A stretch of DNA of 40,232 nucleotides from an uncultured Chlorobiaceae bacterium (GTDB lineage Bacteria; Bacteroidota; Chlorobiia; Chlorobiales; Chlorobiaceae), in assembly GCA_903940125.1 (NCBI GenBank), contig CAJAJL010000039.1, positions 1 to 40,232 on the forward strand, given 5' to 3'. Shown piece after piece: positions 27,314 to 27,829 of this stretch. The notes beneath the pieces are model-generated. The model was not told the origin of the DNA. It did not search any database and was given only the letters and a program-made list of their open reading frames with translations. How positions within the stretch are numbered: the stretch's first letter is position 1; every line of letters starts with the position of its first letter. Both the position numbers and the translations under genes were made by a program.

Positions 27314-27829
27314 TTACCGTTTATCTCTTGAAGAGTGGCGTACCTGACGAAGGTTCATAATTTCGGCTACTTCAAACTTTTCTCCCGTCACAGCAGAGGA
27401 TGGTCGTAAATGAACAACATCCGGAAAATAGCCAAGGCGACCGTGTATTTCAGCTAATACAACAGAGCAGATCGCAGAATATCCCGCAGGAATAGCAACA
27501 ATGCTTGAGGCTTGCCATTGAACAGGTGACAGGTCAATTTTCTCAGTGGCTTTAACAATATTAGCAATAAAATATTTGTCCTCTGCTATAGTACCTACCT
27601 GCACATCCATTACCAGTGTCGAAGGCTATTGCAATAGCTTCTCTATTGTTTTCAGTTGACCGGGTAAAACTGGATGACCTGAAAAGTTTAATACAATAGG
27701 GTGCGCGCTATCAGGGTTTTTTCCCTTCAGAGTGCGTATCAACTTTTTCCAAAGAGCTTGCAGCAATCGTATCAGCCACGGAATATTTTTTGTCACTAAA
27801 TATTCTAATATCTGAATAATCAAAACCAC
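27314..27829 (-). pseudogene. Csx15-like protein gene with in-frame amber codon
   Basis: Two minus-strand frames (27829-27626 and 27610-27314) are in the same phase and are split only by a TAG at 27626-27628. Read through, they form a 171-codon gene. After a hydrophobic N-terminal part of about 45 residues, it runs HPIVLNFSGHPVLPGQLKTI, then VMDVQVGTI, PAGYSAICSVVLAEIHGRLG and FEVAEIMNLRQVR. From memory this is the pattern of proteins annotated Csx15, linked to CRISPR loci in some genomes. No CRISPR array or cas gene is in the window. The GTG start at 27829 has AGGAG just before it. Family naming is tentative; the in-frame stop is certain. Confidence 0.6.

Follow-up and report, generated by a model that had tools for sequence, protein, structure and literature searches.

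Csx15 is a published ring nuclease or sponge of cyclic tetra-adenylate (cA4), a dimeric protein of the CARF superfamily that stacks head to tail around its ligand (PMC13148439). PfCsx15 (PDB 9tet) mainly sequesters cA4, while the Chlorobaculum limnaeum protein CliCsx15 (PDB 9teu) cleaves it at a slow rate, H13 and H90 being the residues implicated in catalysis (PMC13148439). Here we analyse a csx15 gene in a 40,232-nucleotide stretch of DNA from an uncultured Chlorobiaceae bacterium (GCA_903940125.1, CAJAJL010000039.1; hereafter the window), which is the entire contig C39 of its genome. The gene shares with CliCsx15 its family and the motifs at H13 (SGHPV) and H90 (HGRLG), and its intact relatives lie, like CliCsx15, beside an array and cas10. 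Unlike CliCsx15, the window copy has no start, an in-frame amber codon, a Trp-to-Cys change and no type III genes, and CliCsx15 for its part lacks the N-terminal extension of ~63 residues carried by many relatives of the window gene. The orphan PfCsx15 likewise has no linked type III locus, but it is intact and binds cA4, whereas the window gene is broken and its orphanhood can be traced to a deletion scar. We consider it very probable that the window csx15 is a doubly broken relic at the scar of a single deletion that took the type III locus: the gene would stand alone because the neighbouring locus was deleted and its own start was lost along with it. Handles such as G177, C57 and L034 denote genomes, contigs and loci used in the comparisons.

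The window gene is a Csx15 member by descent and a pseudogene in its present state. The initial annotation had described a Csx15-like gene made of two same-phase minus-strand frames parted only by a TAG, and this held on translation: positions 27829 to 27317 of the minus strand form one frame of 171 residues when read through, with a sole TAG at 27626-27628. The read-through protein matched NCBIfam NF040560 CAS_Csx15 over its whole length (positions 1-125 of 125; 128.2 bits against a cut-off of 35; E = 2e-37), with 100.5 bits for the piece after the amber alone, and it also matched the PADLOC Csx15 profile (E = 1.4e-34). These scores, far beyond chance, rule out a chance or mis-framed open reading frame (ORF); a Pfam search gave no match at E values up to 1. 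The closest solved protein was CliCsx15 (E = 5.6e-46), followed by CbCash and then PfCsx15. The HP-x-VLPGQL and AEIHGRLG motifs noted at the outset proved to be the H13 and H90 regions of CliCsx15; both conserved His codons are kept, but the amber puts them on separate peptides. A second Trp, conserved in most relatives, is Cys in the window copy and also in G063. An in-frame ATG occurs at 27610, 15 nucleotides past the amber, and in-frame GTG and TTG codons remain ahead of the core; an uninterrupted gene with a start codon is not present, given the amber and the loss of the ~12 first codons and the ATG. One Csx15 copy was found in the genome (2.98 Mb, 129 contigs, 98.57% complete).

Among the genomes examined, the amber is a lesion private to that of the window. 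Csx15 was found in 14 loci from named records, mostly Chlorobiaceae metagenome-assembled genomes, in 12 of 198 genomes of the phylum and in 20 of 86 genomes of the family, the last giving 24 match rows. Related genomes do hold unbroken copies: 11 of these rows contain no stop and reach from residue 1 or 2 to the last of the 190 residues of the G177 protein. Of the near-full-length rows, that of the window copy alone has a stop inside it, and no other near-full-length homologue is cut at this amber; a csx15 fragment on G202:C52 contains three stops. The position is Trp in all eight relatives aligned, exceptions in separate alignments being a fragment in G015 (L012) and a distant protein in G037 (L011).

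The lost start of csx15 coincides with a junction to a different cas gene. We compared the loci of nine relatives by blastn, assigning match rows to loci by order, and for six loci (L034 of G177, L038 of G197, L035, L018, L016 and L020) the csx15 match stopped between 27838 and 27849, with homology to the intact G177 gene (L034) stopping at 27849. In five loci (L023, L027, L037, L031 and L033; the L037 Cas6 matching TIGR01877, E = 2.3e-39), it was the 3' end of cas6 that matched window DNA past csx15. Over 25-26 residues, the encoded tail was 76-96% identical to Cas6 from four of these loci, and its identity to the Cas6 of G177 was 93%. Both cut points lie inside coding sequence and not in repeats. 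The 211-base junction was found whole in only one of 65 genus genomes, the window's own, while 31 of the 65, own included, matched one or both junction halves. The initial statement that no CRISPR lies nearby stands for genes and arrays in the window, where none was found apart from the cas6 tail, and fails for that tail, which lies directly against csx15.

By sequence comparison, the two sides of the window correspond to the two sides of the type III-A locus of G197, whose contigs are not joined in its assembly. Beyond csx15, G197:C55 carries a 31-unit CRISPR array and RT-Cas1; cas10, csm2, csm3 and part of csm4 lie on C58; and C29 carries part of csm4, csm5, csx1 and cas6, followed by matches to window positions 27845-27984, 29167-29302 and 32883-40225. 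The G177 assembly has a similar division, with the left flank, csx15 and a 17-unit array running to the contig end on C57, and cas10-csm2-csm3-csm4-csm5-csx1-cas6 followed by the right flank on C40 (csx1 named by PADLOC, csm2 and csm5 by position); neither contig showed RT-Cas1. Both junction points lie on one contig in G231 (C7), collinear and 17,478 base pairs (bp) apart, enclosing an array, RT-cas1, cmr genes and cas6, and on G202:C83 they lie ~14.5 kilobases (kb) apart with a III-A-like operon.

A check of the window's genome for type III CRISPR gave no match in the assembly to the Cas10 palm domain or to RAMP, and the cas6 tail at 27845-27943 was the sole cas6 match. A 24-base piece of the type III repeat, searched with up to three mismatches, was absent from the window and from the genome, which rules out a leftover repeat in either. 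The single Cas1 is not RT-Cas1 and lies on C24 beside cas4, cas7/csd2, cas8c/csd1, cas5c and cas3, a type I-C set, with no array seen in the 15 kb around these genes; type I-C systems are not known to make cyclic oligoadenylate. The window csx15 thus stands outside the linkage to type III CRISPR-Cas, there being no Cas10 match in its own genome, although such linkage is typical and not strictly required, since orphans are known. The type III association of the family, stated in the initial annotation, was borne out in the relatives: Cas10 exceeded its cut-off in 15 of the 20 family genomes with Csx15 versus 12 of the 66 others (Fisher p = 5e-6, a figure inflated by shared ancestry). Csx15 genomes without Cas10 over the cut-off were G000, G024, G204, G185 and G222; the csx15 genes of the last two resemble that of G231, which has cas10, so their missing Cas10 may reflect assembly gaps.

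We propose an ancestor that, in window orientation, would have carried csx15 (minus strand), a CRISPR array, RT-cas1 (minus), cas10 and csm genes, csx1 and cas6 (plus), taking the order from G231 and G202 and the gene content from G177 and G197. One deletion of ~14-18 kb (from spans in relatives), its ends sharing five bases, would have begun near codon 13 of csx15 and ended ~30 codons before the end of cas6. Comparison with relatives indicates that the array, the adaptation gene and the cA4-producing complex would have gone with it, as would the start of csx15 with its ~12 first codons. The leftover gene also carries the amber, with its catalytic histidines divided between two peptides; the amber may have arisen before or after the deletion. 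Judged from the characterized proteins, the protein of intact relatives would hold cA4 between stacked dimers, acting as a sponge or cleaving the ligand slowly (PMC13148439). Lacking Cas10, the assembly offers no known source of cA4, and whatever the window csx15 might still produce would be without substrate.

Several observations weigh against this history. The genome is a draft of 129 contigs, and the junction and the amber are known from assembled sequence alone. The type III locus is split over separate contigs in G177 and G197, the G231 locus is III-B-like, and G231 and G202 match the window only in csx15 and cas6 (plus one short piece in G231), so these two genomes show the arrangement and not the same chromosomal site. 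The csx15 matches in L029 and L022 are shorter (ending at 27545 and 27499) and L037 has none, which makes these three loci uninformative on the breakpoint. No match to a Csx1 relative was found in the window's genome, in a search that had no positive control. csx15 is broken in G197 too, where cas10 and csm genes persist; decay therefore need not follow loss of the system, and breakage can come first. Lastly, csx15 shows no clear relaxation. Its ratio of nonsynonymous to synonymous substitution rates (dN/dS) against G177 is 0.15, compared with 0.15 for the neighbouring hydrolase, 0.09 for purH and 0.30 for a PRiA4-like gene, and over residues 14-146, with G197 as outgroup, the window lineage has 12 silent changes, 3 replacements (one on the second conserved Trp) and 1 stop, against 10 silent changes and 5 replacements in the G177 lineage, with one site ambiguous. 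A long decay with raised dN/dS is ruled out by the lack of any elevation; the breakage must accordingly be recent, with constraint until recently. This agrees with the recent nonsense mutation suggested at the outset.

The other option raised in the initial annotation, a protein working outside CRISPR, found no support, the type III locus and the start of the gene both having been deleted. Suppression, read-through or restart could in principle make the gene a functional sponge of cA4 independent of CRISPR, a role suggested for other orphan csx15 genes: the orphan PfCsx15 binds cA4 (PMC13148439), dN/dS against G177 is low, and the ATG at 27610 and the upstream GTG and TTG codons are possible restarts. 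Any such product would have to do without the start codon and the ~12 first codons, in a genome whose assembly gave no Cas10 match, and a restart product would lack the first strand and loop that bear H13, a residue required for catalysis by CliCsx15 and whose equivalent, H11, is required for cA4 binding by PfCsx15 (PMC13148439). The TAG, moreover, is used as a stop by 2 of 17 neighbouring genes checked, both shared with relatives, so TAG serves as a stop in the window and its reassignment is unlikely (suppressor transfer RNAs were not searched for). A functional orphan is on these grounds highly improbable. A programmed amber, either recoding or a regulated short form common to homologues, would fit a frame that is open on both sides of one stop, but the Trp found at this position in every relative aligned and the lack of an internal stop in the other near-full-length homologues refute it as a shared trait and leave it practically no probability.

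We also considered an artefact, in which the assembly fused the two edges of a CRISPR locus that it had failed to assemble and the amber is a consensus error. Arrays do break assemblies: G177:C57 and G222:C102 end at arrays, the G197 locus falls on three contigs, and G185 and G222 have a G231-like csx15 yet show no Cas10. Against this, the whole assembly gave no match to Cas10, RAMP, a full cas6, Csx1 or a type III repeat, its only Cas1 is not RT-Cas1, and each of the two cut points falls within a coding sequence, the overlap being a clean five bases. We therefore hold such an artefact to be very unlikely, and prefer a genuine deletion through the type III locus. The features on which this reading draws, and their neighbours, are collected in Table 1.

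Table 1. Features of the window, and of loci in relatives where a locus is named.
Feature	Position	Strand	Basis or remark
csx15 pseudogene, 5'-truncated, one in-frame amber	27314..27849	-	profiles; blastn against relatives
In-frame TAG	27626..27628	-	Trp position in 8/8 relatives aligned; Trp29 in C. limnaeum numbering (hand-counted)
His codon equivalent to CliCsx15 H13 (needed for catalysis, PMC13148439), upstream of amber	27674..27676	-	9teu alignment; hand-counted numbering
His codon equivalent to CliCsx15 H90, downstream of amber	27443..27445	-	9teu alignment; role from PMC13148439; hand-counted numbering
Remnant of conserved N-terminal extension	27698..27849	-	relatives have ~12 more codons and an ATG start, lost here
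Putative deletion junction, five bases common to both parental flanks (short microhomology)	27845..27849	.	comparison with relatives
cas6 3' end, 32 codons and stop by frame reading	27845..27943	+	25-28 codons align to Cas6 of relatives
Right flank of deletion: cas6 3' end and following DNA	27845..27984	+	G177:C40 27845-27960, 95%; G197:C29 27845-27984, 89%
Left chromosomal flank, with gaps	12852..27849	.	collinear with G197:C55 (12852-27847, five blocks) and G177:C57 (from 14472, six blocks)
Right chromosomal flank	32883..40225	.	collinear with G197:C29
Putative recombination-promoting nuclease (Rpn / PD-(D/E)XK_2), a neighbour outside Csx15	28151..29098	+	profile matches
TM+CARF genes	L028 8893-9756; L029 9063-9908; L026 4370-5227		PADLOC

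Damaged or duplicated csx15 genes also occur elsewhere in the family. The G197 copy (L038 10001-10455) has been broken independently, with a frameshift of one base close to its start and a lost C terminus, and this genome retains the array, RT-Cas1 and cas10/csm genes despite the breakage. In G024 the 5' end of csx15 (L079 33-557; L015 10001-10513) is replaced and residues 16-190 match; no Cas10 match was found in that genome and no array in L015, and the gene may mark another deletion scar like that in the window. Two copies occur within one III-A-like locus (L023 and L026, on one contig, also L066), an extension-less one beside cas6 and a long, truncated one behind the array. Long-form Csx15 had no tblastn match among 50,697 phage or 72,556 plasmid records, and a phage or plasmid origin was ruled out accordingly.

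The N-terminal extension is real and conserved, and longer than first described. Intact long-form csx15 has 189-192 codons, with its ATG ~19 codons upstream of the GTG taken as the start in the initial annotation, so the hydrophobic extension of ~45 residues reported there is the inner part of one of ~63 residues in long-form relatives. Long Csx15 has a hydrophobic stretch at about residues 8-31 followed by a basic second helix; an AlphaFold model of the long form (9 sequences), poor at a predicted local distance difference test score (pLDDT) of 49, places helices at 7-32 and 36-53. Kyte-Doolittle 19-residue maxima were 1.55-1.86 in the extension and 1.39-2.03 in core stretches, and for eight long proteins 39 to 213 of 500 shuffles equalled or exceeded the whole-protein hydropathy maximum; hydropathy above that of shuffles was thus rejected as a mark of the extension, not being distinctive. 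Over the inner 44 codons, dN/dS was 0.16, 0.25 and 0.39 for G177 against L015, L018 and L020, and 0.43, on six changes, for the window against G177. The extension is likely to be under constraint, judging from these few sites.

It is plausible that the extension anchors long Csx15 in the membrane. Cap1 (PMC12642688), Cam1 and Csx23 likewise have, going by the accessible part of that source, a hydrophobic N-terminal stretch before a cA4-binding domain; the intact relatives of the window gene differ from them in having one borderline hydrophobic helix and a basic helix, with Csx15 as the sensor, and are known here from sequence alone. The term 'transmembrane' is absent from the main text of those Csx15 papers that were checked for it, and no membrane-bound Csx15 was found in the literature on transmembrane or membrane-anchored ring nucleases, including the accessible parts of PMC12642688 and PMC12669027, which is not proof of absence. 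A transmembrane (TM) CARF gene (Cam1-like; 'TM+CARF' in PADLOC) occurs in 6 of the 86 family genomes, three of them with Csx15, and had no match in the window's genome. All three genomes with an extension-less Csx15 (G056, G173 and G202 copy 1) have this gene, compared with none of the 11 with a full-length long Csx15 (Fisher p = 0.0027); the test left out G000, G024, G197, G203, G204 and G015, whose csx15 is partial or damaged and none of which has TM-CARF, and the pattern had been noticed before it was tested. G202 additionally has a truncated long copy. On a tree of 17 rows the extension state requires three changes, at least two of them being forced by starred, well-supported branches.

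One reading of this pattern is that the extension would anchor the cA4-stacking sponge as a membrane-bound receptor or effector that replaces a separate TM-CARF effector. We think this rather unlikely: the pattern is post hoc, the hydropathy is borderline, and Csx23, another membrane effector, lies near long Csx15 at two extended loci (L078 and L076), which weakens a simple idea of TM-CARF replacement. We rejected the idea that the extension is homologous to the TM-CARF protein, since the best E value, 0.05, was at chance level. If the membrane-receptor reading were true, the window copy would be a dead remnant of the long form.

A different architecture is seen in CbCash (PDB 9ylu), a fusion of a Schlafen AlbA_2 domain to Csx15 that shares with the window gene a C-terminal Csx15-like domain; no paper naming CbCash was found. 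A 298-amino-acid Schlafen AlbA_2 and Csx15 fusion from a different family of the phylum (L036 9488-10384; E = 4.4e-72 to CbCash) has the Schlafen AlbA_2 domain and, unlike long Csx15, no helical extension. The other ORFs of L036 shared no cluster with the CRISPR loci compared.

Neighbouring parts of the window vary among relatives as well. The Rpn nuclease gene starts ~300 bp from the junction, between it and the right flank, where G197 has a gap of only ~266 bp. The right flank contains a variable island (29302-32883; 3.6 kb here, 1.2 kb in G197) that encodes a weakly HipA-like protein, a helix-turn-helix protein and a ParD-like antitoxin. On the other side of csx15, G177 has a gene with weak similarity to methyltransferases (L034 9016-9946), flanked on each side by a stretch matching window 27200-27262; a single such stretch and no methyltransferase-like gene are present in the window, as after a direct-repeat deletion.

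The window offers a view at base resolution of how an orphan csx15 can arise, when a deletion spares part of the outermost accessory gene. According to the accessible part of PMC12409355, a type III locus is missing in 25% of Csx15 cases; with the scar seen here, this suggests that some orphans may be relics and not CRISPR-independent regulators. Cas scars in the flanks of orphan csx15 genes would provide a simple test for such relics. The deletion relic is a well-resolved example of a known process, and the long form of Csx15 is the part worth following.
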